A stretch of DNA of 64,000 nt from Tropicibacter sp. Alg240-R139 (lineage in GTDB: Bacteria > Pseudomonadota > Alphaproteobacteria > Rhodobacterales > Rhodobacteraceae), in NCBI RefSeq assembly GCF_900537075.1, contig NZ_UNRA01000002.1, forward strand, positions 669,249 to 733,248, in the 5' to 3' direction. Position 1 is the first letter of the stretch. Every line of letters begins with the position of its first letter. This document shows, one piece after another, positions 43,027 through 61,454 of this stretch. Both the position numbers and the translations under genes were made by a program. Under the pieces are notes generated by a model, which worked only from the letters and a program-made list of their open reading frames with translations, ran no database searches and was not told the origin of the DNA.

Positions 43027-44658
43027 TTATCTAAGGATAGCTTTGGCCGTCGCCAAGTTTGTCCATGGATCGTGCTGGCCAAAGTACATCGCAGGAGGTT
43101 CTATCGAGGCGTTCACCAGCCCTTTGATCGCCAAGATCGCCCCGAGGACGCTGTACTCGGTGGTGAACACGATCCCGTCGGGGATCTCCACAAACTGCCC
43201 CAGCAATGCGAAGTTCTGAGACCCTTCGGGAATGACAGGTGGCCGGTCCCCTTCTGCACGAGGCAAAAACTGAGAAATGCCATAGGGCAAGCGACAGGGC
43301 ACGCAGTACGAGGTGTCAAGGAGTTCTGCTTTTTCGTCCCCGTCCAGGTCGCCCCAGAGATGACCAAGGATCTCCTCCAGAATCTCGCGCCCTGTACACT
43401 CATACATTGGCTTTTTCACGAATTGCCCTTCGTTGTCCTCGCCGAGGGCTGAAACCCAGATCACGCAGGTGTCAGCGGCCTGTCCAGGATAAAAGGGTTG
43501 CCGATAGGTGTGCAGATGCAAGATCCAAGGTGAGTGCGTAAGGGGCAATGGGCTTTGCCGTCCCATCAACCGCTCTACGAGCCACTGGAACTTTCGCTCA
43601 AAAAGGCTGCCGCGGAAGGTCACAGTGCAATGCATCATCCTGGAGAGCGATACATCCCGCAGGAAGCGCTCAGGGCGGCCCAAGTCAGATTGCTTTGCCA
43701 CCAATTTCTGCCAGAGCAAGTACGCTCCGCCTGGCTTCTCCGGGGGCGACATCGAGACGGGTTGGTCGTGGGACCCATAGGCGTGGTTGGATACGATTGA
43801 ACCAATCGTCAAGAATGCCCTATCGTGCGGCTGAACCTCGATCGGGTCCATGACCTCACCGTCCGAGCTCTCCAAATGCAAGCGCTCAATCCAGCGCTGT
43901 GTACCGTCAACTTTGAAGTCCGCGTCCGTAACGCGGCAGTTATAGTGGATTTGAACGCCTTTCTCGGTCAACAAACGCAACGCCGGCAAGATGAAGGAAT
44001 GGTAATTGGTGTAGCGGGTACGCTCTAGCGAGGTCATCTTCTCCATATCGGACATCCGATGGAAGAACAGACGCATATAGCGCCGCATCTCGACCGCCGA
44101 GTGCCATGGCTGAAATGCGAAAAGGGCGCGCCACATGTACCAGTAGTTGCTGCGGAAAAATGCGTCACTGAAATAGTCGGTAATTTTGGCATCATAGGGA
44201 ATCGACGACTCGGGTGTCGCCATCAAGCGCGCCATCTGAACTGTCTCAATTGGGCCGAGGCCGAGGTCGTGGCCACTGTCCTTTTCGCCATCTGCATGCA
44301 GCAGGCGGACGACGGTATCGACCTGGCATTCTTCATGGTTGCGCTCATGATCGTCGAGGCAAGAACCATGTTCGTCATAGGGGATCAACGACCAGAGCTC
44401 TTTGGTGCAGCAGTAGACCTTGTCTTCGTACATCCGGCTGCCGCGCATGAAATAGACAGGCTTGCCGTCGACCATTTTCATTGAGGCATCCATCGAGCCG
44501 CCCACCAGATCTCGCTCCGGGTTTTGTTCGAAAATATGGATGTTCGCTGGATCAAAACCGGCTTTCTGTACAAGATAGACTGCGGCCGATATAGATCCGA
44601 GGCCCAGACCATTAAGATATACCTTGGCATTCTTGCTGCTATCTTGCGTTTGGCTCAT
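43027..44658 (-). CDS. ohyA: oleate hydratase (MCRA family)
   Basis: 543-aa FAD-dependent hydratase that adds water to the cis-9 double bond of oleic or palmitoleic acid to give 10-hydroxy fatty acids. The nucleotide-binding motif reads GLGLGSISAAVYL near residue 17. GGSMDAS near 52, RGSRMYEDKVYCCTKELW near 74 and FLPRAEGDRPPVIPEGSQNFALLGQFVE near 460 are hallmarks of the family. Length is slightly below the usual 570-600. The ATG at 44658 has GAGGAG 6 bases upstream. It stands alone between secretion-locus remnants and an IS, which suggests acquisition with the mobile region. Confidence 0.94.
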   Translation of the reverse strand: MSQTQDSSKNAKVYLNGLGLGSISAAVYLVQKAGFDPANIHIFEQNPERDLVGGSMDASMKMVDGKPVYFMRGSRMYEDKVYCCTKELWSLIPYDEHGSCLDDHERNHEECQVDTVVRLLHADGEKDSGHDLGLGPIETVQMARLMATPESSIPYDAKITDYFSDAFFRSNYWYMWRALFAFQPWHSAVEMRRYMRLFFHRMSDMEKMTSLERTRYTNYHSFILPALRLLTEKGVQIHYNCRVTDADFKVDGTQRWIERLHLESSDGEVMDPIEVQPHDRAFLTIGSIVSNHAYGSHDQPVSMSPPEKPGGAYLLWQKLVAKQSDLGRPERFLRDVSLSRMMHCTVTFRGSLFERKFQWLVERLMGRQSPLPLTHSPWILHLHTYRQPFYPGQAADTCVIWVSALGEDNEGQFVKKPMYECTGREILEEILGHLWGDLDGDEKAELLDTSYCVPCRLPYGISQFLPRAEGDRPPVIPEGSQNFALLGQFVEIPDGIVFTTEYSVLGAILAIKGLVNASIEPPAMYFGQHDPWTNLATAKAILR

Positions 44659-44865: not shown

Positions 44866-46384
44866 TTGTTGAAAAACTGATACTTGATCGAGGCATGATC
44901 TGCTGATTCAATTCTCTTATTGATTGGGAGGATTGGCGATGATGGGACCCAAGCAGGAAGCGCAGGCGGCACTGTTTTACGAGTTCTCGCTGGAAGACCA
45001 CGTGCCACGAGATCACTTGTTGCGGTCGATTGATCGGTTTGTCGATCTGAGCAGCATCCGATCGCATCTGGCCGATTTCTACAGCCATACTGGCCGCCCT
45101 TTGATTGATCCTGAGCTGATGATCCGGATGTTGTTGCTTGGCTATTGCATGGGCATCCGGTCCGAGCGGCGGCTTTGCGAAGAGGTCCATCTGAACCTAG
45201 CATACAGATGGTTTTGTCGCCTTGATCTGACCGACCGCATTCCAGATCATTCTACCTTCTCGAAGAACCGTCACGGCCGTTTCCGTGAAAGTGGCCTGTT
45301 CCGGCATCTGTTCGAGACGGTTTCGCAGCGCTGCATGGATGAAGGGCTGGTCGGTGGTCACAGCTTTGGTGTCGATGCCAGTCTGATCCCGGCCAATGCG
45401 AACCAGACGCGTGGGGTTGATAGCAAAGAAGGATTGCCATCGAATCTGACGTCGCGCGCAGTAGATGAATATATTGAGACACTCGATCACGTTGCTTTCG
45501 GGGCAGCGACAAAGGTAATCCCCAAATACATCTCGCCGGTCGATCCCGCTGCTCGTTGGACAGGAGCAGATGGAGGTGCCGCATACTTTGCTTATTCTAC
45601 CAACTACTTGGTGGATTTGGACAATGCGGTCATTGTGGATGTCGAACCGACAACCCCGATCCGGCCCGCTGAAGCGCGGGCCGCAAGGGACATGATTGAC
45701 CGGGTGCAGGATCGGTTTGGGATCAAACCCGATAAGCTTGTGGGTGATACAGGCTATGGATCAGCCGAGATGTTGGGCTGGCTGGTGGAGGACCGTCAAA
45801 TCGAACCCCACATTCCGGTCTGGGACAAATCCAAACGAACCGACGGAACATTCTCACGTGAGGATTTTGCATATGATCCAGCGACCGATAGCTACTCTTG
45901 CCCAGGAGGCCAATCGCTTCAGACGTACCGAAGGAAGTTCTCAAAGCCGCGTGTTGCGAACGGCGGAAAAGACGGGTTCATCAAATACCGCGCATCCAAA
46001 CTGGATTGCGACGCATGCCCCTTGAAGCCAATGTGCTGCCCAACCCAACCGGCGCGAAATTTGCTCCGCTCGGTTCATGAAGCTGCACGCGATGTCGCCC
46101 GCGATATCCGCAAGACAGACGCCTACATTACCTCGTTCATCCAGCGACGAAAGGTCGAGATGCTATTTGCGCACCTAAAACGATACATCGGCCTGCGGAT
46201 GATGCGGCTTCGCGGACCCAAAGGTGCAACAGAACAGTTCCAACTCGCAGCAACAGCCCAAAACCTCCGCAAACTGGCTAAATTGCTGCCAACACCAGCG
46301 CCTGCGTGAAGGGAAACGCGGCTGGCCTGTTTCTTGATCAACATCAAGCCCGCCAAAACACCGACTTCTTCAACAGTATCCGGA
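44866..46384 (+). mobile_element. IS1182-family insertion sequence
   Basis: One transposase gene flanked by imperfect inverted ends: TTGTTGAAAAACTGA (44866-44880) at the left, and at the right 46361-46380, whose complement reads ACTGTTGAAGAAGTCGG. Exact tips and target duplication were not resolved. It separates oleate hydratase from the Rrf2 regulator gene. Confidence 0.75.
44939..46309 (+). CDS. IS1182-family transposase
   Basis: 456-aa DDE transposase. The N-terminal DUF772 region has GRPLIDPELMIRMLLLGYCMGIRSERRL. Catalytic residues are expected at GVDASL (first Asp, near 150), VGDTGYGS (second Asp, near 273) and a late Glu in RRKVEMLFAHLKRYIGLR (near 410). A Cys cluster (CDACPLKPMCC) precedes the last block. 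The frame is intact, so the element may be active. The start at 44939 follows GGGAGG. Confidence 0.93.
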   Translation: MMGPKQEAQAALFYEFSLEDHVPRDHLLRSIDRFVDLSSIRSHLADFYSHTGRPLIDPELMIRMLLLGYCMGIRSERRLCEEVHLNLAYRWFCRLDLTDRIPDHSTFSKNRHGRFRESGLFRHLFETVSQRCMDEGLVGGHSFGVDASLIPANANQTRGVDSKEGLPSNLTSRAVDEYIETLDHVAFGAATKVIPKYISPVDPAARWTGADGGAAYFAYSTNYLVDLDNAVIVDVEPTTPIRPAEARAARDMIDRVQDRFGIKPDKLVGDTGYGSAEMLGWLVEDRQIEPHIPVWDKSKRTDGTFSREDFAYDPATDSYSCPGGQSLQTYRRKFSKPRVANGGKDGFIKYRASKLDCDACPLKPMCCPTQPARNLLRSVHEAARDVARDIRKTDAYITSFIQRRKVEMLFAHLKRYIGLRMMRLRGPKGATEQFQLAATAQNLRKLAKLLPTPAPA

Positions 46385-46630: not shown

Positions 46631-47059
46631 TCAGCTGTCGCAATAGCTGCAAGACTTGGGATGAACATCCGTGATCGACGTTTCGCGCAGGCGTTTCACA
46701 AGACTCTCTTCAATCTCTTCAAGGACTTCCGCCACGCGCATTTGAAGGCCCGTTTCGACACTACAGTGCGACGGTTCGAGATCTGTATCGTTCCCTGAAA
46801 CCAAACGTTCGTCTAATGCCAGATAAACGTCAGCAAGTGTGATGCTTCTTGCTGGTTTTGCCAACCGCCAACCACCCGCATGTCCCTTTTCCGACGACAA
46901 GAGACCTGCTTCCCTGAGCTTCCCAAGCACACGGCGCACGACGACAGGATTCGTTCCGGCATGAACGGCAATATCTGCAGATGTTCGCACGCGGTCAGGG
47001 TCACCCGCCATGTGGCTGAGTGTGTGCAGGGCGAGAGATAGGCGACTGTTCCGCTTCAT
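46631..47059 (-). CDS. Rrf2-family transcriptional regulator
   Basis: 142 aa. The winged HTH has RTSADIAVHAGTNPVVVRRVLGKL (about 25-48) and the wing SSEKGHAGGWRLAKPA, both typical of Rrf2 proteins. The usual closely spaced Cys triad near residues 90-105 is absent. Instead there is His98-Cys99 and a C-terminal Cys137-x2-Cys140, which could hold a metal. It is divergent from the ZigA-like gene, 105 bases away, and is the obvious candidate regulator of the metal locus. Confidence 0.9.
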   Translation of the reverse strand: MKRNSRLSLALHTLSHMAGDPDRVRTSADIAVHAGTNPVVVRRVLGKLREAGLLSSEKGHAGGWRLAKPARSITLADVYLALDERLVSGNDTDLEPSHCSVETGLQMRVAEVLEEIEESLVKRLRETSITDVHPKSCSYCDS

Positions 47060-47098
47060 GCGCAGTGTTCCTCCGGAATTCCATCACACGTAACAATA

Positions 47099-47123
47099 GC
47101 AGTTGCATTTATCTAGTAACTGC
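47099..47123. promoter_or_regulatory. inverted repeat in the Rrf2/zigA intergenic region
   Basis: GCAGTT (47099-47104) and AACTGC (47118-47123) face each other over 13 bases, midway between the divergent starts. It is a candidate operator for the Rrf2 protein. It does not look like the known alphaproteobacterial Zur palindrome. Confidence 0.45.
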
Positions 47124-47164
47124 GTAAGTTGCGTGATCGTTGTTGCACGCTTTGGAGAGCACAT

Positions 47165-48379
47165 ATGCCAGATACTCGGCTTCCAGTCACCGTCCTGTCC
47201 GGATTTCTGGGCGCGGGCAAAACCACCCTGCTGAACCGCGTGCTCAACAATCGCGAAGGGCGACGGGTCGCCGTTATCGTCAACGACATGTCCGAGGTGA
47301 ACATCGACGCAGACCTCGTGCGTGCGGACACCGAACTCAGCCGTACGGATGAGACTCTGGTCGAGATGTCTAACGGTTGCATCTGCTGCACGTTGCGCGA
47401 CGACCTTCTGGATGAGGTACGCCGATTGGCAGCCGAAGGGCGGTTTGACTATCTGCTGATCGAGAGCACAGGGATTTCCGAACCTCTGCCTGTCGCCGCA
47501 ACGTTCGATTTTCGCGACGAATTTGGCAACAGCCTGTCTGATGTCGCCCGGCTCGACACGATGGTGACTGTCGTTGATGCGGTGAACCTGCTCAGGGACT
47601 TTTCCAGCCACGATTTCCTGCGCGAACGGGGCGAAGTCATGGGCGATGAGGACGAGCGAACGCTGGTGCATCTGCTGACCGATCAGATGGAATTTTCCGA
47701 TGTTGTGATCCTGAACAAGGTCGCCGATGCGTCCGAGGCACAGGTTGACGCTGCCCGCAAGATCATCCGCAGCCTGAACGCGGATGCCGAGATCATCGAA
47801 ACCAATCACTCGGAGGTCGCTGCAGAGAAAATTCTCGATACCGGCCTCTTCGACTTCGACAAGGCGCATGAACACCCGATGTGGGCCAAAGAGCTTTATG
47901 GGTTTGCAGATCACGTTCCGGAGACCGAAGAATACGGTGTAACCTCTTATGTCTATCGCGCACGCCAGCCTTTCATCCCCGAGAAAATCCTGGCGGTTCT
48001 GAACGGTGAAATGCCCGGCGTGATCCGCGCCAAAGGGCATTTCTGGATTGCCACGCGCCCCGAATGGGTCGCGGAGTTCTCACTGGCTGGATCTCTATCG
48101 AGCGTTCAGCCAATCGGCACGTGGTGGGCGAATGTGCCCAAAGAACGTTGGCCCGAACACGTAGCAGCGTCAGACTATATCAAGGAGCATTGGCAAGAAC
48201 CATGGGGCGACAGGCGGCAAGAGCTTGTTTTCATTGGGTCTGATATCGATTGGGCTGCCCTGAAAGCCAAACTCGACGCCTGCCTAGTTCCCTCTGTGTT
48301 GGCCGCCGGGCCCGATGCCCTGCCGCTCGACATGCCCGACCCGTTCCCGGGCTGGCGGCGTGCCGAGGAAGCCGCATGA
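47165..48379 (+). CDS. zigA: ZigA-like COG0523 GTPase, putative zinc metallochaperone
   Basis: 404 aa. Walker [10 protein letters not shown] near residue 14, [12 protein letters not shown] near 40 and the metal motif NGCICC near 75 define COG0523; [13 protein letters not shown] is the guanine-specificity region. The C-terminal CobW_C domain holds [13 protein letters not shown] near 300. This branch is linked to zinc starvation in other bacteria, distinct from CobW at 31359. Its stop overlaps the DUF1826 start (ATGA). A metal-transfer role to client enzymes is inferred. Confidence 0.9.
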
Positions 48380-49011
48380 ACATCGCAGCCCCGGTTTTCG
48401 CCGACCAACCGGCAGGTGTGCGGGTTGTCAGCGACGCAAGAGGCTTGGACAGTTTTCGTGATCCTTCCTGTGCCGCGGCGATCTGGGGGCGAGAAGTGCC
48501 GTCGAACGTTGCCTTGTGGCTTGACGCGCTTGATGCCAAGGCTTTGCCGGACGGACGCGTCGTGTTGCATGTCCAGGCCATCAGAGACACTGTTCTACAC
48601 CTTTGTGATATCGCCGGGACGCCAGATGGGCCACATCGCGAATGGCTGATCGACGACATCGCCGATCTGGCCCAACGCTTTGCAAGCCTGATGAACGCGG
48701 ACTATGTGCGATTGCGGCTGCAGGCCGTGACCACAAACGCCTGCCGTAAATTCCATCTTGATGCGATCACCGGCCGACTCGTCTGCACCTATCGGGGGAC
48801 CGGAACGCAATACGGAACTTCGGTGCGCAGAGAGGACCCTGTGCACATCCATACAGCGCCAACATGCGCGCCCATTCTTTTGCGCGGCTCGCTTTGGCCG
48901 CCCGAACCAGATGCGGGGTTGCTGCATCGCTCGCCCCCGATCGATGGGACTGGCGAGACGCGTCTTTTACTCGTGCTGGACCCGATTTTTGATCTGGACG
49001 AGGCCGAGTGA
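48376..49011 (+). CDS. DUF1826 protein
   Basis: 211-aa soluble protein. The C-terminal part contains [21 protein letters not shown] (about 121-141) and [19 protein letters not shown], with several His and Cys residues that could bind metal. DUF1826 genes are commonly found beside ZigA-type GTPases in zinc-responsive loci. Function is unknown. It overlaps genes on both sides by 4 bases, giving a tightly coupled operon. Confidence 0.88.
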
Positions 49012-49280
49012 ACCGCAATCTCGGACAAAGCAGCCTGCGTCGCAAAAGGCGGTCCGGTGATCCTATGGAGGACTATGACGGCTTGCCTGCACCCGTCCGC
49101 AAGTGGGTCGCTGAGGCGGCCTTGCCATGGTCGGTTACCTCGGTTCGCCGCATTTGGTCCAAATCGCGGGCCAAGGGATTGTCTGCGGAAGAAACGCTTC
49201 AATCGCTTGCCCATGCCGAAGCGCGCACATTGGCGCGTGATCGACAATCCACTGTCTTCAAACTCAACTCCATCACCTGA
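49008..49280 (+). CDS. small basic protein (DUF6525-like)
   Basis: 90 aa from a GTG that overlaps the DUF1826 stop. The core MEDYDGLPAPVRKWVAEA followed by LPWSVTSVRRIW and a helical tail is conserved in form with small roseobacter proteins labelled DUF6525. No motif reveals a function. Its operon position between DUF1826 and the transporter suggests a role in the same metal response. Confidence 0.75.
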   Translation: MNRNLGQSSLRRKRRSGDPMEDYDGLPAPVRKWVAEAALPWSVTSVRRIWSKSRAKGLSAEETLQSLAHAEARTLARDRQSTVFKLNSIT

Positions 49281-49291
49281 AGGAAATGTAT

Positions 49292-50815
49292 ATGTCGTTT
49301 ATTACTCGACTTACCTGTGCCGCCGCGCTCGCACTTGGTACAGCTTTGCCCATCGCCGCCCAAGAGGGCAGCCTCACCATTTCGGTTGGCTTCGGTCCAT
49401 CTGCCGAAGTGCCCGACCCGCGTGCCAGCTACAACGGCTGGATGTCGAACCAGACCGGCGTGACCGAAACGCTGATGGGGATAGACTATGACATGAACCT
49501 CTATCCCCGTCTGGCAGCCGGAATTGAGCAGTCATCGCCGACAACCTGGCGGGTGACCCTGCGCGAAGGGGTGACGTTCCACGACGGCGCGCCGGTGACG
49601 GCGCAGGCGGTCATTGATTCGATTGCAGCGATCTCGGACGAAGGACATCCAGGCCACAACGCACGCGTTGCAAAGCTGCTTGATCTTGCGGGCATGCCCA
49701 CTGACGGCGACAACGTCGTCATCTTCGAGACAAACGCGCCCAACGCAGCCTTCCCATGGACGCTGTCCGAACCTGCGATTGCGATACTCGGCGCATCATC
49801 CGACGCGTTCCCGATCAACGCCACCGGACCTTTTGTGTTCAAGGAAGCTGTTCCAGAGCAGCTTTACCGTGCAGAAGCCAACCCGGACTATCGGCTTGGC
49901 ACGCCCGGCCTGAGTGAGGTGCGCGTCGTGGTCGCCGCGAACCCGGCCACCGCCGCGCTGGCCTTTGAGGCCGGAGAAGTTGATCTGGTCATCAATTACC
50001 CCGAAACCGACTTCAACCGCATAAAGGACACGGGAGCGCAGGGCTTCTCCGCACCGACGGCTCGGCTCTATTTCTACACCGTCAACGCGGCAAGCGGGCC
50101 GATGTCCAACCCGTTGATCCGTCAGGCCGTGTCCTATGCGATTGACCGTCAGAGCGTTGTCGATGCAGCGCTGTCCGGCGTCGGGGGCGTGCCCGCCGGA
50201 ACGGTCTATCCCGACGGCAAAGGTTGGGCGGCTGACATACCGGCCCCCTATGACCCCGCCAAGGCAGAAGCGCTCTTGACCGAGGCCGGAGCGGTCAAGG
50301 AAGGTGGTGCCTGGATGCTGGACGGCGCACCGCTGGAAATTGACATTGTCACCTATTCCTCGCGCGCTGCGCTGCCCCCGACGGCAGAGCTGACCCAGGC
50401 CTTCCTGGCCGCGATCGGCGTCAAGGCGAACATCACGGTGGGCGAATGGAGTGCCAGCAATGATGCGATCAAGGCAGGCGAGGCTGACCTGTTCCTGCAA
50501 GCCTGGGTGACAACGCCGCAGGGTGATCCGGGCGGTGTTCTGGAGACGTTGCTGAAATCCGACGGAGGCTCCAACTCCGGTGGCTATGCAAATGCGCGAC
50601 TGGATGACTTGCTGGCCCAAGGCCGCCTGACCTTTGAACACGCCGAGCGCAAGGCGATCTATGACGAGGTTCAGGAAATCATCGTCTCCGAGGCCGCATT
50701 GATCCCCATCTTCCACGTCAGCCAGACAAATGTCGGCGTGCCCGGTCTGACCGGCTATCAAGTGCATCCAACCGAGACCTATTGGATCACGCACGAGACG
50801 AAGGTGGTGAAATGA
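49292..50815 (+). CDS. ABC transporter substrate-binding protein (peptide/nickel/metallophore type)
   Basis: 507 aa, SBP_bac_5 family. Signal peptide LTCAAALALGTALPIAAQ, then TETLMGIDYDMNLYPRLA near 55, VTLREGVTFHDGAPVTAQAV near 87 and NPLIRQAVSYAIDRQSVV near 270. These are the standard blocks of NikA/DppA/CntA-like binding proteins. It captures a ligand in the periplasm for the permeases at 52211 and 53142. Neighbouring zinc-linked genes suggest a chelated metal as ligand, not a peptide. Confidence 0.9.
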   Translation: MSFITRLTCAAALALGTALPIAAQEGSLTISVGFGPSAEVPDPRASYNGWMSNQTGVTETLMGIDYDMNLYPRLAAGIEQSSPTTWRVTLREGVTFHDGAPVTAQAVIDSIAAISDEGHPGHNARVAKLLDLAGMPTDGDNVVIFETNAPNAAFPWTLSEPAIAILGASSDAFPINATGPFVFKEAVPEQLYRAEANPDYRLGTPGLSEVRVVVAANPATAALAFEAGEVDLVINYPETDFNRIKDTGAQGFSAPTARLYFYTVNAASGPMSNPLIRQAVSYAIDRQSVVDAALSGVGGVPAGTVYPDGKGWAADIPAPYDPAKAEALLTEAGAVKEGGAWMLDGAPLEIDIVTYSSRAALPPTAELTQAFLAAIGVKANITVGEWSASNDAIKAGEADLFLQAWVTTPQGDPGGVLETLLKSDGGSNSGGYANARLDDLLAQGRLTFEHAERKAIYDEVQEIIVSEAALIPIFHVSQTNVGVPGLTGYQVHPTETYWITHETKVVK

Positions 50816-51495
50816 CATTATCCGTATCCGGCCTGAGCGCAGTGCGCTCGGGCCGGACCATCCTCCACCCTACGTCGCTGGAAATACCCTTGCAGATCCG
50901 CATCGGCCTCGTGGGGTCATCCGGGTCCGGGAAATCAACATTGGGGCACGCGCTGATCGACGATCTGCGTGCACAGGGTCACACCGTGGCCCATGTGCCG
51001 CAAAGCCCGGACGAAGCGCTCGATCCGCTGCGGTCTATGGCGTTTCACTGGCGCGAAGCGGAAACAGCCCTTGGCCTGCCACCGGGAAGCGCGGATCAGG
51101 CCGGGCTTTTCGGCGCGCTGAAGATCGAAGGCGGTGATCTGAGCAAACGCCCGTGGGGCTGGAGCCGCGGTATGCAGCAGCGGTTTGTCATAGCCATGGC
51201 GCTGATCGGCAATCCTGATCTGATTGTGTTAGACGAGCCCACATCCGCGCTCGACCCGGTCGTGGCGGCGGCCACCATGGAACTGCTCAGCGCCTTTCTG
51301 ACAGGTAAGGACACGGCGATGATCCTGATCACCCATGACCTTGGCCTTGCCGCGCGACGCGTCGAAAGGCTGATGGTGATGGACGCTGGGCGTCTGGTCG
51401 AAACAGGACGCACCGAAGACATTCTGGAACGCCCGAAAACAAGAGCAGCCAATGCGCTTTCAACGCATCGAAACTGGATGGTGTTGCCGTGTTAA
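50812..51495 (+). CDS. ABC transporter ATP-binding protein (NikD/DppD-like)
   Basis: 227 aa. Walker A GSSGSGKSTLG near 36-46, signature region seen as RPWGWSRGMQQRFVIAMAL (a degenerate LSGGQ), Walker B LIVLDEPTSALDP near 140 and the switch His in ITHD. The short form lacks the C-terminal oligopeptide extension and its Fe-S Cys. ATG overlaps the binding-protein stop (ATGA). Confidence 0.9.
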   Translation: MTLSVSGLSAVRSGRTILHPTSLEIPLQIRIGLVGSSGSGKSTLGHALIDDLRAQGHTVAHVPQSPDEALDPLRSMAFHWREAETALGLPPGSADQAGLFGALKIEGGDLSKRPWGWSRGMQQRFVIAMALIGNPDLIVLDEPTSALDPVVAAATMELLSAFLTGKDTAMILITHDLGLAARRVERLMVMDAGRLVETGRTEDILERPKTRAANALSTHRNWMVLPC

Positions 51496-52214
51496 AGGTG
51501 ACTGACCTAGCCGTTAAACGAGGATCGCGGGTCACGCTGGAGAGCATTACATTGTCCCTTCCAGCCGGTGAAACACTTGCGGTTGTTGGCGAAAGCGGGG
51601 CAGGCAAATCCACGTTGATCGCCGCAATCCTGGGCCTGCTAAAGCCCGCAGAGGGCGAGATCACGTGGAACGGCAAACCTGCGCGTGCCGCCCGCCCGGC
51701 GTTGGTCATGCAAGAGCCGCGCGCGGCATTCAATCCGGCGTTGAACCTGCGACGGTCGGTGATGGAGCCGATTGTCGCGCAGGGGGTTGCACTAGCGGCA
51801 GGTCGGTTAGAGCGGCTTTGTGCAGGGCTGGAAATGCCGCTGGACCTGTTGGACCGACGCCCGGATCAGGTTTCAATCGGGCAAGCGCAACGGGCTGGTA
51901 TTCTGCGCGCCTTAATCGCCGCGCCCCCGCTTGTGCTGTTTGACGAACCCCTCTCGGCGCTTGACGCGGTGACGCAGAAACACACCGCGCGCTTGATTTC
52001 GGAGTTGCAGGCCGAGGAAGGCTTTGCCGCGCTGATTGTCACCCATGACCTTGGCTATGCGGTTGCGCATGGCGATCAGATCATGGTGCTAAAGGCCGGG
52101 CGTGTCGAAGAGACCGCTGACGCTAACACCTTTGCCTTGACCCCTCAATCGCCCTATTGCCGCACATTGCGGGATGCCGCGATCTCTCTTGGTGCGCTTG
52201 AGGCCGCGGCATGA
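51489..52214 (+). CDS. ABC transporter ATP-binding protein (NikE/DppF-like)
   Basis: 241 aa from a GTG start overlapping the previous gene by 7 bases. Walker A GESGAGKSTL near 36-45, MQEPRAAFNPALNLR (Q-loop) near 75, signature VSIGQAQRAGILRAL near 125, Walker B LVLFDEPLSALD near 148 and IVTHD. It pairs with the ATPase at 50812 as a heterodimer, as in nickel/peptide importers. Confidence 0.9.
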   Translation: MLKVTDLAVKRGSRVTLESITLSLPAGETLAVVGESGAGKSTLIAAILGLLKPAEGEITWNGKPARAARPALVMQEPRAAFNPALNLRRSVMEPIVAQGVALAAGRLERLCAGLEMPLDLLDRRPDQVSIGQAQRAGILRALIAAPPLVLFDEPLSALDAVTQKHTARLISELQAEEGFAALIVTHDLGYAVAHGDQIMVLKAGRVEETADANTFALTPQSPYCRTLRDAAISLGALEAAA

Positions 52215-53149
52215 TCAAAGCCATTGGCGCCCTTTTGCTGCGTGCCGCGGTCGTGCTGTTGGGCACCGCAATCCTGACCTTTGCACTGCTCTGGAATGCG
52301 CCCGGGGACCCGGCGCAGACCATTGCCATGGCCCGTTTCGATGCGCTTTTGACCGATGACGTGATCGATCAGATTCGCGACGAGGTCGGGTTGAACACGA
52401 ACTTCTGGCACGCCTTCCGGGCATGGCTTGGTCCGTTGCTGAGGTTCGATTTCGGGTACTCGGCAGTAACGGGACGTCCGGTCTGGCCCGACCTTTGGAC
52501 GGCGATGACCTATACCTTTCCGCTGGCTTTGGCCGGGTTGGCGAGTGGTCTGGCGCTCTCGCTGCCGCTTGCCATACTCGCCACCAAGCGTCCCGGTGGG
52601 CTTTTGGATCGAACGTCGGTTGCGATCGCATCGCTGGGTGCCGCGATCCCGGCCTATTGGCTTGGGCTTCTCCTGATCCTGTTGCTCGCCGTTCAACTGG
52701 GCTGGCTGCCCGCCATGGGCGCGCGCACGCCCGCCCACGCAATCCTGCCCGCCGTCACGCTGGGTCTCGGAGTTGCAGCCTCGCTGACCCGGATCATCCG
52801 GTCCGGCATTCTTGAGGCACGCGGACAGCCTTTCCTGCCCGCGATCCGGCGGCGCGGCGTCGACGGCAGAGCCGTTGCTCGCGATCACATCGCCCCCCAT
52901 GCCGCGATTCCCGTTGTCACGGTCTTTGGCCTTGAACTGGCCTTCCTGCTCGAAGGGGCGGTGCTGATCGAGGTCATTTTTGGCCGTCCGGGCCTTGGCA
53001 CTTTTCTAGTCCAGGCAATCCTGTCGCGCGATTTCCCGCATGTGCAGGCCGTCGTCGTATTGACCGCTCTTGTCTTTGTGGTGGTCAACTTGGCTATCGA
53101 CATCATCTACCGCGCAATCGATCCCCGGATTGGAACCGAGGATGCGTAG
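52211..53149 (+). CDS. ABC transporter permease (NikB/DppB-like)
   Basis: 312-aa membrane protein with about six spans. It has the N-terminal ATILTFALLWNAPGDPA block and the C-terminal EAA-loop (HIAPHAAIPVVTVFGLELAFLLEGAVLIEVIFGRPG, landmark near 225-265). It forms the membrane channel with the permease at 53142. Start overlaps the ATPase stop as ATGA. Confidence 0.9.
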   Translation: MIKAIGALLLRAAVVLLGTAILTFALLWNAPGDPAQTIAMARFDALLTDDVIDQIRDEVGLNTNFWHAFRAWLGPLLRFDFGYSAVTGRPVWPDLWTAMTYTFPLALAGLASGLALSLPLAILATKRPGGLLDRTSVAIASLGAAIPAYWLGLLLILLLAVQLGWLPAMGARTPAHAILPAVTLGLGVAASLTRIIRSGILEARGQPFLPAIRRRGVDGRAVARDHIAPHAAIPVVTVFGLELAFLLEGAVLIEVIFGRPGLGTFLVQAILSRDFPHVQAVVVLTALVFVVVNLAIDIIYRAIDPRIGTEDA

Positions 53150-53936
53150 TGTCCTGTTTGTCGTCATCGGTCTTGTGGCTCTTGCGGTTCTGGGTCCGCT
53201 TCTGGCCCCTTATGATCCAACGGCGATCGATATTCCGAACCGTCTCTCTGCCCCAAGTGCCAGGTTCCCGCTGGGTACGGATGCGCTTGGGCGGGATATC
53301 CTGTCGCGCTTGCTTTATGGGGCGCGGTGGTCGCTGGGGCTGGCGTTCCTGATCTCGGTTCTGAGCCTGCTCATCGGGACGTCAATCGGCCTGATTGCAG
53401 CACTGGGCGGCAAGTCCGCCGATTGGTTGCTGATGCGCGCAACCGATACCTTTTTGGCCTTTCCTGAACTGGTGGCCGCCGTCGTCATCGCCGGGCTTAT
53501 GGGCGCAGGCACCTGGAGCCTGATCTTTGCTCTCAGTGTCACAGGCTGGATGCGCTATGCCCGTGTGGCCCGCGGCATCGGTCTGTCCGTTCAAAATCAG
53601 GGATATGTGGTACAGGCCCGATTGGCCGGCATGCCCGGCTGGTCCATCGCCCGCTGGCATTTTCTGCCGTCGCTGATTCCATCGCTCACCGTTGTCTGGA
53701 CGGGTATGTTTGCTCGCGCGATCCTCGGCATTTCGGCGCTTGGGTTTCTGGGTTTTGGCGTCCAGCCCCCGAACCCCGAATGGGGTGCGATGCTGCTGGA
53801 TGCGCGCGTGCACATGCGCTCGACCCCGCTGCAGATGATCTGGCCAGGCATGGCGGTTGTCACCTGCGTTCTCACCATCAACCTTGCCGGTGACGCCCTG
53901 CGCGATGCCCTGGCCAAGCAAAGCAGCCATGAATGA
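53142..53936 (+). CDS. ABC transporter permease (NikC/DppC-like)
   Basis: 264 aa. LGPLLAPYDPTAIDIPNRL near 18 and PLGTDALGRDILSRLLYGAR near 44 are signature segments of the DppC/NikC group. The EAA-like loop ARLAGMPGWSIARWHFLPSLIP lies near 160, and FLGFGVQPPNPEWGAML near 205. The ATG at 53142 overlaps the preceding stop by 8 bases. Confidence 0.91.
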   Translation: MRSVLFVVIGLVALAVLGPLLAPYDPTAIDIPNRLSAPSARFPLGTDALGRDILSRLLYGARWSLGLAFLISVLSLLIGTSIGLIAALGGKSADWLLMRATDTFLAFPELVAAVVIAGLMGAGTWSLIFALSVTGWMRYARVARGIGLSVQNQGYVVQARLAGMPGWSIARWHFLPSLIPSLTVVWTGMFARAILGISALGFLGFGVQPPNPEWGAMLLDARVHMRSTPLQMIWPGMAVVTCVLTINLAGDALRDALAKQSSHE

Positions 53937-54826
53937 GCCATCCTGACCGTCCCACCCTCGGGATCAGCCTGCGGATATTCGGAGGCCTGATGTCGGCGGG
54001 CATGTTCGTCTGCGTCAAGGCGGCAGGGCCGGAAGTGCCACTGGGGGAAATCGTCTTTTTCCGGTCCTTCTTTGCCGTGATTCCATTGATCCTGTTCCTT
54101 TGGTCCCGCGGAGAATTTCCCCAAGGGCTGGCCACCAAAAGACCCTTGCAGCACCTAATTAGGTCCGGTTTCGGGGCCATTTCCCTTTTCACGTCATTTG
54201 CGGCGCTGACCTATCTTACCCTTGCCGAAGCGCTGCTGATCGCGCAGCTCTCGCCCATGCTGATGGCAGTTGGTGCAGTGGTCCTGCTGTCGGAGCGCAT
54301 CACAATCTGGCGCATTGCGGGTGTTCTCGTCGGCTTTGGCGGTGTGGTTGTTCTGGTCTGGCCTGAAATCGGCGACAACTCGACCGATAGCGCCCGGCTA
54401 TGGGGGATCGGTCTGGCCTTGGTTTCTGCCGTCCTGTCAGCCGTGGCCCTCCTCATGGTGCGCAGCCTGAACAGAACCGAGAGCCCCGGTGCGATCGCCA
54501 TGTATTTCGTCATCGCTTCGATGATAGGCGCCTTATGCACACTGCCATGGGGCTGGATTGTGCCGGACCTGCCTACAACCGGATTACTGATCGGGGCCGG
54601 ACTGTTCGGCGGTTTCAGCCATATCGCCCTGACACTGTCCTTTCGCTTTGCAGAAGCCTCGCGTTTGGCGCCGTTTGAATACGTGGCGCTGCTTTGGCCG
54701 CTTCTGGCGGATTTGTTCATTTTCCGCCTCAGCCTGTCCACCAGCTTCCTCATTGCAGCGCCCCTCATTCTGGCAGGAGCAGCCATTGCCGCGGCGGAAA
54801 TAGGCAAGCGAAAACAGGGCACATAG
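53933..54826 (+). CDS. EamA/DMT-family transporter
   Basis: 297-aa protein with ten predicted membrane spans in two EamA repeats. Landmarks are FFRSFFAVIPLILFLW, TYLTLAEALLIAQLSPM and RFAEASRLAPFEYVALLWPLLADL. It is the last gene of the zigA-ABC operon (ATGA overlap with the permease). DMT proteins of this type can export metabolites; in known opine-metallophore loci an EamA protein (CntI) exports the metallophore, which suggests but does not prove such a role here. Confidence 0.88.
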   Translation: MSHPDRPTLGISLRIFGGLMSAGMFVCVKAAGPEVPLGEIVFFRSFFAVIPLILFLWSRGEFPQGLATKRPLQHLIRSGFGAISLFTSFAALTYLTLAEALLIAQLSPMLMAVGAVVLLSERITIWRIAGVLVGFGGVVVLVWPEIGDNSTDSARLWGIGLALVSAVLSAVALLMVRSLNRTESPGAIAMYFVIASMIGALCTLPWGWIVPDLPTTGLLIGAGLFGGFSHIALTLSFRFAEASRLAPFEYVALLWPLLADLFIFRLSLSTSFLIAAPLILAGAAIAAAEIGKRKQGT

Positions 54827-54987: not shown

Positions 54988-56442
54988 TTAGCCGCCCGCC
55001 TTCTGGTGTTCAGCCGCGTTGAACGTCACGTCGTTACTGGTCGGCAACGGGATCGGCTGCGCGGACAAGGTGACGCTGAATAGCAAGGCGCCGATGGCGA
55101 ACACGCAGGAAGCGCCTGCCAGACGCACTCCTGACTCAAACTGCGCGCGTCGTACGGGCCCGGTCGCAAACCGGCGCTCTGCCCAGCCCCGCCCCCACAG
55201 CGCGGCAATGCCGATCGCTGACATGGCCGCCGCCATGCCCGCCGAGATCGCAACCACCATCAGCACAGCAGGCCAAACCAAATCGTTGGCCAGCCCGAAC
55301 AACATCACCAGCAAAGCGCCCGTACAGGGCACGATGCCGACCGAGGCTGCGATCCAGCCGCTGCCCTTGGGGTTGCTGCTCGCTGCGCAGGCCGCACAGC
55401 CGCTGTGGTCGTGGCCGGCGTGATGGCGGTGATCGTGATGGTTATGATCGTGGTCGTGGTCGCCATGCGCAGGCACTGCCCTGGCGCGCGTCGTCTGGCG
55501 GGCCAGGATCGACGCGATGGCCTGCCAAAGCATAACACCGCCAATGGCCATCACCAGAGCGTAGCTCGCCAGGCGAATGGCGCGAAAATCAGAAGGCGCG
55601 GACCCCGTCGTCGAGCGCACCGCGAAATCAAGCAAGAGAACGATAACCACCGCCGAAAGAACGTGGAAGATCGCGATGCGCACGCCCATGGTCAAACCGC
55701 GCCGAAGGTTGCCGCCTGTCCCTACGAAATAGGAAATCACGACGGATTTGCCGTGCCCCGGCCCTAGGGTGTGAAGCGCGCCGTAACCAAAGCACAGCAG
55801 CAACGCCATCAGCATCGCCTTTATCGATCCGCCCTTGTCAATGGCCAGCATGCTGTCGGTGAAAAGCTCGTTGACCCATATCTGGATCCGGGTCGCCACG
55901 GGAATGCCATTGGCCGAGCTGGCAATGATCTCTTCCGGCAATCCAAGTGTCTTGGCTTCGGTCAGAGCGTAGCTCGCCGAGACTACCCTCGCACCGTCGA
56001 CAAGATAGATTGGGTGGTCGGCTGGCTCGTGCCGCAGAATTCCGGAAATTCGAACCGGTTCAAAGTGCTTGGTGAATTGCAGCCCATCCGGATAGGACAC
56101 GTGAATGATCTGGTTCGGCGGAGGAGCGGGTGTGTGGACACACGCCCCGACCCATGGCACCAGCAGAAACTCGGTGACAAGGCCGCTTTCTCCCAAAACT
56201 GGAAGGGCGTAGCCATCGATGACAATGTCGCGGTCCAGAAGGTCCGACGCGAGTGCGGGTGGTTGGGACGCTCCTCGCCCTTGCGCCAAGGGGCCGCCAG
56301 ACAAGGCTTCTGCGTCGATAACCTCTGAAGGTGCAAGCGCATCCCAGGTCACCAACTGCGGTTCCGAAGCGCTGGCAGCAGATACGAACACCGCCACGGC
56401 GAGCAGGTGAAGAAAGGTTTTTTGCAAGCGCCATAGCCGCAT
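54988..56442 (-). CDS. fusion of DUF3299 domain and NicO-type nickel/cobalt (metal) transporter
   Basis: 484 aa. A signal peptide (LLAVAVFVSAASA) precedes a periplasmic DUF3299 domain (LVTWDALAPSEVID to SYPDGLQFTKHFEP, about 30-150). The second half is NicO/RcnA-like: GYGALHTLGPGHGKSVVISYFVG near 215, a His-rich loop (HGDHDHDHNHHDHRHHAGHDHSG lies near 325-347) and GIVPCTGALLVMLFGLA near 370. His-rich NicO proteins usually move Ni, Co or Zn across the inner membrane. It is convergent with the ABC operon. The fusion is unusual; the frame is intact throughout. Confidence 0.86.
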   Translation of the reverse strand: MRLWRLQKTFLHLLAVAVFVSAASASEPQLVTWDALAPSEVIDAEALSGGPLAQGRGASQPPALASDLLDRDIVIDGYALPVLGESGLVTEFLLVPWVGACVHTPAPPPNQIIHVSYPDGLQFTKHFEPVRISGILRHEPADHPIYLVDGARVVSASYALTEAKTLGLPEEIIASSANGIPVATRIQIWVNELFTDSMLAIDKGGSIKAMLMALLLCFGYGALHTLGPGHGKSVVISYFVGTGGNLRRGLTMGVRIAIFHVLSAVVIVLLLDFAVRSTTGSAPSDFRAIRLASYALVMAIGGVMLWQAIASILARQTTRARAVPAHGDHDHDHNHHDHRHHAGHDHSGCAACAASSNPKGSGWIAASVGIVPCTGALLVMLFGLANDLVWPAVLMVVAISAGMAAAMSAIGIAALWGRGWAERRFATGPVRRAQFESGVRLAGASCVFAIGALLFSVTLSAQPIPLPTSNDVTFNAAEHQKAGG

Positions 56443-56756
56443 CGGGAACTCCTGTACCCATCTTCAGTAAGGGGCGCTGCCTTGTCTGCAGGACCGTGGC
56501 GCTTGGTTTGTAGACACCGACCTCCCGTAATTGGAGCGCATCAGCTTTGCCAAGATCCTCAAACACCCCGCCAAACCTTAGGAACTGACCATCATGCAAC
56601 ATCATCTGTTGCGTTAGTCAAGGATTTTAATGTTAAGTGAGTTGGACTTTGGATTGGCAGATTGACCGAGACGATACTCAGGGTTACGTCCGCAAGGGCC
56701 GAAAGCGGATTTCCTGTCGGCTAGAGACATCGGTAACTCTGGGCTCTTTGCGGCCG
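56443..56756. other. upstream region of the DUF3299-NicO gene
   Basis: 314 bases. On the minus strand TTGACT (about 56621-56616) could be a -35 box. It is followed by CGCAAC-AGATGAT-GTTGCA (56613-56595), a 5-6-bp inverted repeat in the -10/-35 area that may be an operator. No gene is supported in this stretch. Confidence 0.4.
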
Positions 56757-58815: not shown

Positions 58816-59853
58816 TTAACTAGCCGATTGCCGGTAGGCTCGGGGAGATAGCCCAGTACGTTTTCGGAACGCCCTGCTGAACGCTGTCGCGTCTGAATAG
58901 CCTAGACTTAGCGCAATGCTCTGGATTGAAGCGTTGGAGTTGGCCAATGAGCCCTTAGCGGCCTCCATTTTCAAGTCCGTAAGAATTTCGACAATGGTCG
59001 TATCAAATTTGGCCAATCTTCGTGCCAGAGCAGATTTTGAAAACCCGCACAGCTCTGCCGCTGTTTCCACGCTCAGGTTACTCTCGCTAATGTGCTTTTC
59101 TAGTATTGCACGAATGGCTTCCACAAACCCCTTCGGGGCGAGCATATCCAGCTGCGGGCCGACTAAATCATCCGTGTCTTCGGGCGCTAAGACCCCATTC
59201 AGCGGAATCGTTAACCATGCAGCAGGAAACCGAATGGAAAAGCCCCGGTCATTGCTCTTGATCGCCCGGATGCCGTGAAACTCTTGCGGTAGAACAGCCG
59301 GATCGCACATCCTGACCAACACCGAAGCCGGATCCCAGCGGAAATCAAGCGCTTCATGCAAGAATGTGATCCAAATTCCAATCATGAAGCCGTCGATGTG
59401 GGCCGGTGACACGGTTGGTACAAACTTACGTTTGGCGCTAAAATATGCCGTGGTGTCTTCGACGAACAAGCTCTGAGAGATGGAGTTCGTCTCGCTGGCA
59501 ACAGTTTGGGTGAAGCGAGAGATAAACCCACCAATTGTCGTGGCCTCCTCAAGGGCGGCGCCGAACGGAAGGAAGTCTGCAAGGTTGATGTTGCGACCAA
59601 CGGACGTGCAGAAACACTGATCATTGCGTAGTTCAGCCGCCGCTGCGTACACCCGATAGACAATATCATTTCGGATGTAGGACGTCGGATCTTTAATGGA
59701 CACGACGGAAAGATCAAAGGCCGCTAGAAAAACGTCAATGTCTTCGCTGCGTGACTTCAACGCCTGAACCACAGGAGCCAATACAGTGGCCCGAACCATC
59801 GGTATGTCACTCCGATCATGATTTGCAGCCACAAGAACACCCTCACTTGTCAC
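58816..59853 (-). CDS. AraC-family transcriptional regulator
   Basis: 345 aa. An N-terminal Arabinose_bd-type ligand domain (ARRIVAL not visible; landmarks SVGRNINLADFLPFGAALEEA near 85) is followed by a C-terminal AraC HTH pair: LSVETAAELCGFSKSALARRLAKF and SIQSIALSLGYSDATAFSRAFRKRTGLSP. It is divergent from the amidohydrolase gene (180 bases), its likely target together with the DoxX gene. Start may instead be the ATG at 59799. Confidence 0.9.
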   Translation of the reverse strand: MTSEGVLVAANHDRSDIPMVRATVLAPVVQALKSRSEDIDVFLAAFDLSVVSIKDPTSYIRNDIVYRVYAAAAELRNDQCFCTSVGRNINLADFLPFGAALEEATTIGGFISRFTQTVASETNSISQSLFVEDTTAYFSAKRKFVPTVSPAHIDGFMIGIWITFLHEALDFRWDPASVLVRMCDPAVLPQEFHGIRAIKSNDRGFSIRFPAAWLTIPLNGVLAPEDTDDLVGPQLDMLAPKGFVEAIRAILEKHISESNLSVETAAELCGFSKSALARRLAKFDTTIVEILTDLKMEAAKGSLANSNASIQSIALSLGYSDATAFSRAFRKRTGLSPRAYRQSAS

Positions 59854-60032
59854 GCGTTGAAGAGTATAGACGGATCGTCAGGAAAATGGAGAGGGCACCC
59901 GCAATAACCTGACATTTTGCAACGACAATCGTAATGAGTCGCCTCGAACTGTCAGGTAAGTCATTTAAGTATCGGGCATTCTGCCTAGAAAAGAGATCCA
60001 AATTTTGTTCTCGGTCATCTCAGGGGAAGCCA

Positions 60033-61454
60033 ATGAAAGTTCTGTCGAAATACAAGACTGAGGTTGCGGCGTTAGCTGCGGCAATAACCTTTTCTGCCAA
60101 CTTTGCATTCGCTCAGGACACACCAGCGCAGACGTTGTTCACCAATGTGAATATTTTCGATGGGATGAATGAAGCTCTAATGGAGAACGCCAGCGTTCTG
60201 GTCGAAGGTAACTTGATCAAGTCCGTGTCAACGGATGCCATTGATGCACCGGATGCCACGGTCATAGACGGTGGTGGTCGCACATTGATGCCGGGGCTTA
60301 TTGAGAGTCACGTGCATCTGAACATGCAACATATGGTGGGTGGCTACGACACATTTGAGGACCGTGACTGGCAAGAAGTCGGGGCAATGGCGGCATTTAC
60401 GGCGCAAAGCATTTTGATGGATGGCTTCACAACCGTGCGGGACGTCGGTGCTTTGCAGGTTGGGATTCGCCGTGCAATTGACGGCGGTTTCGCAATTGGC
60501 CCTCGGATTTACCACGCTGGCGCCGTGATCAGCCAGACTTCCGGACATGGTGACTGGAGACTGAAGGGTCAAAACACGCTCGAAAGCCGAAACACCGGAA
60601 AAGTCGCGCAGCTTGGTCTGGCATATGTCGTTGATGGGCACGATGCATCGCTGAGTGCCGCCCGACAGAACCTCGCGAACGGGGCTGTGTTGAACAAGAT
60701 GATGATGAGCGGCGGTGTCTTCTCGTCGAAGGACGGCTTACATACGATACAGGCCACCGACGAGGAAGTGACAGCCGTGGTCCGAGCTTCGAATGATTGG
60801 GGCACCTACGCAACGGCGCATGTGAACAACCCACCCGATATTCAACGCGGTTTGCGCCTCGGCCTGGGAGAGATCATGCACGGGCAGTTTCTGGATGAGG
60901 AAACAGCCGCAATGATGGTCGAAGCAGGCGTGTTTTACAATCCGCAGCTCTCGGTTTCTTCTCTCGAAGCAATCGAGCGCACGTTTGGGCCTGAGCCGTC
61001 AGTGAACAAAGCAAAATCATTGTTGGTTGCCAAGGGAATGGCACGGATTCCAGATATTCTTTTGAAATTTCCCAAGCTTTTGGAAAAGACCACCTTTGGC
61101 GTAGATACCGTCACAGTTACGCCAGCGAATGCGATCCGCAACCGCGATCACGAAATTTGGTTTTGGGCCGACAAGTTTGGTACTTTGCAGACGCTGAAAT
61201 CCATGACCTCCATCGGCGGCGATCTCGCCGCTCTCACGGGTGGCCAGAACCCATATCCTGCCGGGTCCCTCGGTGTCATTAAAGAAGGCGCATATGCCGA
61301 CATCTTGTTGATCGATGGCAACCCGCTGGACGACATAACCTTGATTGGTGGCAGCAAAGAACTGTTCGATGCACCAGACCGCAAACCCGGAGAGATCCCG
61401 GCGATGGATCTGATCATGAAAAACGGTGTGATATACAAGAACACGCTGGATTAA
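60033..61454 (+). CDS. exported metal-dependent amidohydrolase
   Basis: 473 aa. Signal peptide VAALAAAITFSANFAFAQ. The amidohydrolase TIM barrel shows HVH (His93, His95), a probable bridging Lys222 in NKMMMSGG, His263 in TAHVNNP, His283 in IMHGQFLDEE and Asp358 in FGVDT. This is the binuclear set of the imidazolonepropionase/Xaa-Pro dipeptidase-like group. The substrate is unknown. The start has GGGGAAGC upstream; a more upstream ATG (59934) would remove the N-terminal signal peptide. Confidence 0.9.
   Translation: MKVLSKYKTEVAALAAAITFSANFAFAQDTPAQTLFTNVNIFDGMNEALMENASVLVEGNLIKSVSTDAIDAPDATVIDGGGRTLMPGLIESHVHLNMQHMVGGYDTFEDRDWQEVGAMAAFTAQSILMDGFTTVRDVGALQVGIRRAIDGGFAIGPRIYHAGAVISQTSGHGDWRLKGQNTLESRNTGKVAQLGLAYVVDGHDASLSAARQNLANGAVLNKMMMSGGVFSSKDGLHTIQATDEEVTAVVRASNDWGTYATAHVNNPPDIQRGLRLGLGEIMHGQFLDEETAAMMVEAGVFYNPQLSVSSLEAIERTFGPEPSVNKAKSLLVAKGMARIPDILLKFPKLLEKTTFGVDTVTVTPANAIRNRDHEIWFWADKFGTLQTLKSMTSIGGDLAALTGGQNPYPAGSLGVIKEGAYADILLIDGNPLDDITLIGGSKELFDAPDRKPGEIPAMDLIMKNGVIYKNTLD

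Follow-up and report, generated by a model that had tools for sequence, protein, structure and literature searches.

In Tropicibacter sp. Alg240-R139, a dedicated single-cysteine Rrf2 system appears to stand in for Zur, the standard repressor of zinc-starvation operons, at an operon headed by a ZigA-type metallochaperone gene, and its sister branch appears linked to enzymes acting on zinc-stripping dithiols. The regulator gene lies on the minus strand at positions 46631-47059 of the window, that is the whole stretch of 64,000 nucleotides that was analysed. Its product is the likely regulator of the divergent zinc operon, because both the operators and the divergent arrangement are conserved, and this regulator-operator-target part of the explanation is held with high confidence. 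The locus is thus a candidate for a non-Fe-S Rrf2 protein that reads zinc.

The plus strand of the gene interval is interrupted by stops and the minus strand carries an open frame of 142 amino acids. The translated protein belongs to the Rrf2 family according to Pfam (PF02082, E-value 2.2e-29; 102.7 bits, with the cut-off at 30), and its score of 70.9 bits with the NCBIfam rrf2_super model is slightly below the cut-off of 73.3. The NCBIfam equivalog models for IscR, NsrR, RirA, CymR, HypR and the SUF regulator all scored far below their cut-offs, with 44.1 bits against 180 for HypR (NF041852), which sets the protein apart from HypR. No FUR-domain match was found in it with Pfam, and it is accordingly not a member of the Fur family to which Zur belongs. 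Of the chains with a solved structure, B. cereus BC1842 (1ylf) and B. subtilis YwnA (1xd7) are closest to the protein in sequence. An AlphaFold2 model of one chain (mean pLDDT 81.9) matches the winged-helix Rrf2 folds of 1ylf, RsrR, YwnA, CymR and IscR. In this one-chain model, Cys99 is placed directly before helix 100-124 and the C-terminal tail contains a short helix at 138-141, both in stretches of low confidence (mean pLDDT 57 for residues 91-100 and 69 for residues 131-140).

Several claims of the initial annotation are borne out by these data. An Rrf2-fold regulator is indeed encoded at this position, as indicated by the Pfam match and by the fold of the model. The usual Fe-S cysteine triad around residues 90-105 is absent, and would be impossible since this stretch contains one cysteine only; the Fe-S class of IscR, NsrR, RirA and RsrR has its cysteine ligands around residues 90-110. 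His98-Cys99 and Cys137-x2-Cys140 are both present in the translation, and cysteines occur solely at positions 99, 137 and 140. Beyond the residues listed at that time, the protein also contains His12, His16, His33, His60 and His133. Immediately downstream of the gene, a transposase of an IS element (DUF772/DDE) was found at 44924-46309, two more near-full copies of which (95% identity) and several fragments are present elsewhere in the genome. It adjoins a gene for an MCRA family protein at 43027-44655 (Pfam E-value 7.9e-142).

On its other side, the Rrf2 gene is separated by a gap of 105 bp from the divergent operon, which confirms the earlier claim of a zinc-linked neighbour. All genes of this operon are on the plus strand. 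The first one (47165-48379) encodes a ZigA-type COG0523 zinc metallochaperone GTPase with Pfam cobW and CobW_C domains, scoring 589.1 bits with the NCBIfam ZigA model, just below the cut-off of 600. It is followed by genes for a DUF1826 protein (48376-49011, Pfam 2.7e-54) and a DUF6525 protein (49008-49280, Pfam 6.4e-30) and then by a peptide/nickel-type ABC importer. The latter comprises a family 5 solute-binding protein (49286-50815, Pfam SBP_bac_5 5.6e-74), two ATPases with Pfam ABC_tran domains within 50812-52214 (50812-51495, with a start chosen by the analyst, and 51489-52214) and two NikB/NikC-like permeases with Pfam BPD_transp_1 domains within 52211-53936 (52211-53149, and 53142-53936, with a start again chosen by the analyst). 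An EamA-type transporter gene (53933-54826, Pfam EamA 1.6e-18) is probably the last one of the operon. Across the 80 loci fetched, ZigA, DUF6525/DUF1826 or the binding protein was encoded divergently within 7 kb in all except one (79/80; the exception is L076). Near the operon, an AraC regulator and an amidohydrolase are encoded at 58816-61454; on an Alisedimentitalea plasmid (12676-15724 of locus L227), both are neighbours of the Rrf2 gene, and the two genes possibly travel together.

The gap between the two divergent genes contains two operators of sequence GTAAC-N7-GTTGC that are conserved in the promoter set. They are located at 47087-47109 (score 25.6) and 47113-47135 (score 26.5), 26 bp from each other. 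Among 83 upstream regions, all different, two GYAAC-N7-GTTRC palindromes were observed in 72, always 26 bp apart, a single one in 10 and none in the remaining one (L085). In 16600 mononucleotide shuffles, two sites were never found and one site was found three times. This palindrome fits the GTAA-N9-TTAC operator of the SifR/YwnA branch, which supports membership of that branch; according to PMC9218516, SifR and HypR have TGTAA-N9-TTACA operators, with the same half-site geometry. In the whole genome, 14 GYAAC-N7-GTTRC sites were counted against 45 for the reversed pattern. When the 64 kb window was scanned with a weight matrix derived from the promoters, three sites reached a score of at least 10, at 47087, 47113 and 56593, and all three are among the 14, the third as a pattern match at 56596. 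The third one, GCAAC-N7-GTTGC at 56593-56615 (score 24.9), is located about 150 bp upstream of the start of a metal-transporter-like DUF3299-NicO fusion gene (54988-56442, minus strand, Pfam DUF3299 and NicO), which is a candidate second target. The fusion protein carries a His-rich loop, and no homologue was found at an E-value of 1e-20 in the other loci compared. A scan for the sigma-70 consensus gave no promoter by its rule.

In 24 whole genomes that contain the regulator, a stricter operator pattern yielded 135 matches against 117 for its reversed counterpart, and single sites found by pattern only therefore mean little. Twenty chosen places were fetched and scored for operators, and the genes were examined at ten of them; the other ten are L163, L164, L166, L170-L173 and L177-L179, of which L170, L171, L172 and L177 score at least 15. 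Tandem operators 26 bp apart and away from the regulator gene precede ZigA (L161), DUF6525 (L160) and the zinc chaperone AztD (L174, with E-values of 2.4e-124 to 6ck1 and 2.8e-90 to AztD 6cmk). Two further sites were found at Rrf2 genes of the sister branch (L165 and L176). At L162, L167, L168, L169 and L175 there was no obvious zinc gene downstream of the site and these were left out. The site at L175 (2487-2509, score 23.6) falls inside a DUF1007 gene (Pfam 7.7e-35), a family that is also found in the zinc island of Paracoccus sp. MA described below.

The genome already contains a separate FUR-family gene (Pfam 30.4 bits) that neighbours an ABC ATPase gene and znuA (Pfam 8.1e-60), and the shared promoter there contains a Zur box matching at 13 of 14 positions. 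At the ZigA genes compared, the two kinds of site did not occur together. Among 86 distinct ZigA starts, 56 were preceded by the Rrf2 operator, 17 by a clear Zur box, 2 by a weak one, 11 by neither and none by both, with thresholds chosen by the analyst (operator score at least 15; Zur box at least 12/14, and 11 for a weak one) and in a non-random set, as most of the 56 operator-bearing loci were fetched by means of the Rrf2 protein. None of the 83 upstream regions of Rrf2 genes contained a Zur box, the best matches to two Zur boxes being 10/14 and 11/15. Among the 11 promoters with neither site, three (L074, L083 and L075) have an oxidase gene inserted between the operator and ZigA, and another one (L078) has an operator just under the threshold.

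In congeners of the strain, ZigA is 83-85% identical and is preceded by a Zur box (L183, L185 and L186). The ZigA of the window is 90.6-93.8% identical to five Rrf2-linked copies found elsewhere (L227, L010, L060, L013 and L018), one of them plasmid-borne. These closer copies, together with the multi-copy IS element next door, point to a horizontal gain of the Rrf2-controlled version of ZigA. Another genome (G038) has both kinds of ZigA gene, one with the Rrf2 operator and one with the Zur box. In Paracoccus denitrificans, the portion of PMC5387054 available describes an operon made of a COG0523 gene, two hypothetical genes and a cluster C ABC transporter that has Zur motifs and is increased more than 8-fold in low zinc. 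By comparison with Paracoccus sp. MA, where both genes follow zigA, these two hypothetical proteins would correspond to DUF1826 and DUF6525. Such a clean swap of a Zur box for an Rrf2 operator at the same operon in close relatives constitutes a testable case of regulator replacement.

Conservation of the putative sensing residues was assessed in homologues from a scan of species genomes that gave 119 relatives, the best 80 of which were kept; two other close ones from related genomes and more at a later stage were added. Homologues were considered zinc-linked when ZigA, DUF1826, DUF6525 or a binding-protein match lay within 3.5 kb, and identical proteins were counted once. Of 84 homologues first classed as zinc-linked by their neighbours, one (L214) was moved to the oxidase-linked set by the tree, leaving 83. 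The tree relies on few columns and has some long branches; its interpretation was confined to the starred forks.

Cys99, whose codon is at 46763-46765 on the minus strand, is present in all 83 zinc-linked and in all 54 distinct oxidase-linked homologues. In a phmmer alignment to 1xd7, it falls on the conserved single cysteine of YwnA, a loop cysteine, and its equivalence to Cys102 of SifR was reached through this YwnA alignment. With a single cysteine at this position in 83 of 83 proteins, the zinc-linked group belongs to the "monothiolate" Rrf2 branch as defined in the accessible part of PMC9218516. His12, His16, His33 and His60 are also found in 83/83 zinc-linked proteins and Glu102 in 82/83. 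The combination of His12, His16, Cys99 and Glu102 is present in 82 of 83 zinc-linked proteins, in 50 of 54 distinct oxidase-linked ones and in 8 of 25 others, these eight belonging to the same two branches without being linked to either kind of gene. Invariance alone is weak evidence since 53 of the 142 positions differ in no more than one of the 83 zinc-linked proteins, and residues that are common to both groups (His12, His16, Cys99 and mostly Glu102) are not markers of zinc sensing as such.

The other residues highlighted in the initial annotation fared differently. It had been considered that homologues lacking these cysteines would speak against the proposal, and in this respect Cys99 stands as invariant whereas Cys137 and Cys140 do not, being present in only 15 of 83 zinc-linked homologues and lacking in 68. 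Moreover, position 98 is a histidine in only 6 of 84 homologues. A ligand set made of His98, Cys99, Cys137 and Cys140 is therefore not supported, and such a family-wide metal site was rejected on conservation. All 15 proteins with the CxxC (CSYC) tail belong to one clade of 17 (support 99/93), of which L010 and L085 are the two tail-less members. L010 is tail-less yet keeps both operators and the ZigA-DUF1826-DUF6525 genes; L085 lacks the operators as well as any adjacent zinc gene. Judged by such genomic signs (operators and operon), most zinc-linked members seem to do without the tail, and the idea that the tail cysteines are a needed part does not hold since tail-less zinc-linked homologues retain both signs. 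Of note, a Tateyamaria genome (G102) has two Rrf2-ZigA copies (L010 and L019), one of which is this tail-clade member without tail.

Where it is present, selection acts on the tail. In the His-Pro-x-Ser-Cys-Ser-Tyr-Cys stretch (codons 133-140, 46640-46663, minus strand), His133, Cys137, Ser138, Tyr139 and Cys140 are invariant in 15/15 tail bearers, each with synonymous codon changes, while residues 141 and 142 vary. Hence His133 seems a likelier fourth ligand than His98 among the candidates. A swap of ligands between the tail cysteines and His103/His106 was also considered. His103 or His106 is present in 59 of 84 homologues, the tail in 15, both in one (L017) and neither in 11, one of the latter being L214, later classed as oxidase-linked. 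This idea was not relied on because 10 of the 83 zinc-linked proteins show neither feature and only one clade has the tail.

The nearest paralogues of the zinc-linked regulators in the tree are 16 oxidase-linked proteins grouped on one side of a branch with support 99/95. In this sister branch, the Rrf2 genes adjoin a gene for an NAD(P)/FAD oxidoreductase. Among solved structures, its best relatives are 3fbs, DepH and 4ntd (thioredoxin reductase-like), followed at lower scores by GliT; the oxidase of L165, for instance, matches DepH with an E-value of 1.8e-86. In a phylum-wide search of 398 genomes, 29 had a gene for a DepH-type oxidase at an E-value of 1e-70 or better, and 28 of these 29 genes adjoin an Rrf2 gene matching the profile of the sister branch. 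An operator score of at least 15 was obtained at 20 of the 29 oxidase loci and at 1 of 580 shuffled loci. In the same way, within one genus, an Rrf2 gene was present beside 11 of the 11 oxidase genes found there and an operator at 9 of 11, locus L242 being counted in both sets. Plasmids carry the oxidase-Rrf2 pair as well, for example S. meliloti pSymB and plasmids of Roseovarius pelagicus, Paracoccus aminophilus and Klebsiella quasipneumoniae. A SAM-dependent methyltransferase is encoded after the dithiol oxidase at L230 (4341-5027, annotated) and L176 (3478-4092, read by eye), an arrangement reminiscent of thiol methylation in dithiol detoxification.

The oxidase and zinc genes also meet directly. 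In the roseobacter loci L074 and L083, the zinc operon has a gene for a DepH-type oxidase in first place, between Rrf2 and ZigA (E-value 3.4e-58 to DepH for the L074 copy), and L075 has a diverged copy without the CPYC motif. Paracoccus sp. MA has a related oxidase inside a zinc island with AztA, COG0523 genes and ZigA. Perfect Paracoccus-type Zur boxes precede the FUR-type gene and zigA in this island; there is none directly before the gene pair of the oxidase itself and no Rrf2 gene in the 17 kb fetched around it. In the Tropicibacter genome, no DepH-type oxidase was found at an E-value of 1e-70 or better among the 6 of 31 first-look candidates that were scored. In the sections of PMC11317636 available, DnoP of P. 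aeruginosa is reported to be induced by zinc starvation, its expression rising with the chelator TPEN and falling with zinc. The same sections place DnoP in the DepH group, which is given here as the statement of its authors and not from an alignment. They name no regulator of dnoP, which may or may not be controlled by an Rrf2 protein.

The proposed mechanism builds on supported points, namely the family of the protein, its operators, the target operon, the exchange of the Zur box for another site and the presence of Cys99 in all members. In this scheme, a dimeric Rrf2 repressor from the SifR/YwnA branch would sit on both operators of the 105 bp intergenic gap and thereby shut off the zinc-starvation operon on one side as well as its own gene on the other. 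Upon zinc scarcity, the repressor would release DNA so that the ZigA chaperone and the importer are made and, through the third operator, the NicO-type transporter as well. This task would be that of Zur for the same operon in relatives. Zinc itself would act as co-repressor at a site formed around Cys99 and possibly lying across the dimer; His12/His16 and Glu102 are candidate partners throughout the family, and the tail clade would add His133/Cys137/Cys140 as a further arm. Repression as the mode of action is suggested by family precedent, and the dimer and every ligand assignment are putative. That zinc is the signal is suggested by the target genes, by the change of site at the ZigA promoters and by the way in which a DnoP gene possibly under Rrf2 control responds to TPEN; the adjacency of oxidase and Rrf2 genes (28/29 and 11/11), taken together with the zinc response of DnoP, counts in favour of it. 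Direct metal sensing through the Cys99-built site, with His12, His16 and Glu102 as candidates, is possible. Against this, the genome already has a Zur, with which another zinc sensor would overlap in part. Taken as a whole, a dimeric single-cysteine Rrf2 repressor of a zinc-starvation operon, relieved by zinc scarcity and using zinc as co-repressor at the Cys99 site, is given an even chance of being right.

The main alternative takes SifR as its precedent: Cys99 would be a thiol switch that is modified by electrophiles, disulfides or zinc-chelating dithiols, whereupon the repressor would leave DNA. Examples of such dithiols would be gliotoxin, dithiolopyrrolones or, in the sea, a compound like tropodithietic acid; the zinc operon would then be induced since such molecules strip intracellular zinc, and Cys137/Cys140 could be a resolving dithiol in the tail clade. 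This alternative is given a lower probability than the zinc model. In its favour, Cys99 aligns with the YwnA cysteine, the counterpart of the quinone-reactive Cys102 of SifR, a studied relative that senses quinones rather than a metal, which counts against metal sensing. The frequent pairing of DepH-type oxidase genes with Rrf2 genes of the sister branch (28/29), the oxidase between Rrf2 and ZigA in L074 and L083 and the related oxidase in the Zur-box-bearing island of Paracoccus sp. MA (with no box before its own gene pair) also argue for it. Nevertheless, DnoP responds to TPEN, which is free of thiols, and zinc reverses this response, according to the parts of PMC11317636 at hand. In addition, the lack of an oxidase at 1e-70 in the genome itself (6 of 31 first-look candidates scored) and the absence of the CxxC tail from 68 of 83 zinc-linked homologues count against a thiol switch.

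Two other explanations are unlikely. The binding protein and permeases resemble Nik/Opp systems and the third operator precedes a NicO-domain gene, as would be expected if the regulator sensed nickel, cobalt, iron or a metal-chelate imported by the peptide/nickel-type transporter; ZigA, AztD and the counterpart operon with Zur motifs all point instead to zinc. Equally improbable is the essential sensing site made of Cys99, Cys137 and Cys140 with His98 put forward in the initial annotation. Cys99, His133, Cys137 and Cys140 are invariant in the 15 tail bearers, next to variable residues 141-142, but the tail is missing from 68 of 83 zinc-linked proteins, His98 is not conserved and the tail-less L010 keeps both its operators and ZigA-DUF1826-DUF6525.

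A broader view can be put forward tentatively, at clearly less than even chances. A branch of single-cysteine Rrf2 proteins across the Pseudomonadota, usually beside DepH/DnoP oxidases, would be a second, Zur-independent class of sensors for zinc starvation or for zinc-stripping antibiotics; a roseobacter offshoot would have taken control of the ZigA operon away from Zur, and a clade within this offshoot would have gained a His-x3-Cys-x2-Cys arm. The link to dithiol oxidases suggests a tie between defence against zinc-stripping disulfide antibiotics and zinc supply, and provides a candidate type of regulator for DnoP-type enzymes.

Among the titles of the literature matches listed, none reported an Rrf2 protein linked to zinc genes or to a dithiol oxidase, and Rrf2 is not mentioned in the available part of a paper on thiolutin activation (PMC12288471). 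In S. aureus, the portion of PMC5480029 available reports that genes for COG0523 and pyridine nucleotide disulfide oxidoreductase proteins are raised both by sulfide and by "CP treatment", within a response to sulfide-induced zinc limitation, and separately that a SaiR-related Rrf2 gene falls with sulfide.

RsrR, IscR and NsrR share the fold of the regulator described here (for RsrR, Z 14.1 over 138 aligned residues, rmsd 4.7) and its His12 aligns with His12 of RsrR, but it lacks the cysteine triad and has one cysteine in the cluster loop. RsrR has two cysteine ligands to its cluster and other Fe-S Rrf2 regulators have three. The His12 position of RsrR is presumably a cluster ligand, and the title of its structure paper names Cys, Glu and His ligands.

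SifR of S. pneumoniae and YwnA are also close. They resemble the window protein in the single conserved cysteine that opens the last long helix, in the lack of an Fe-S triad, in the GTAA-N9-TTAC operator half-sites and in the fold, which is that of YwnA. In SifR, it is quinones that are sensed by Cys102, whose reaction abolishes DNA binding (PMC9218516, in the part available). The targets differ, however: SifR controls catechol-iron uptake genes whereas the window regulator faces zinc-starvation genes. It also differs by its tandem operators 26 bp apart, by HxxxH in helix 1 and by Glu102, YwnA having neither His16 nor Glu102, and the CSYC tail is restricted to its own clade. In relatives, this operon is under the control of Zur, as is a similar one in P. 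denitrificans, but Zur is an unrelated protein with an unrelated operator, and a separate zur-type gene is found beside znuA in this genome. Finally, the Rrf2 proteins neighbouring oxidases share the operator, HxxxH, Cys99 and Glu102 (50/54) with the window regulator, which, in a genome without such an oxidase at 1e-70, serves the zinc operon.
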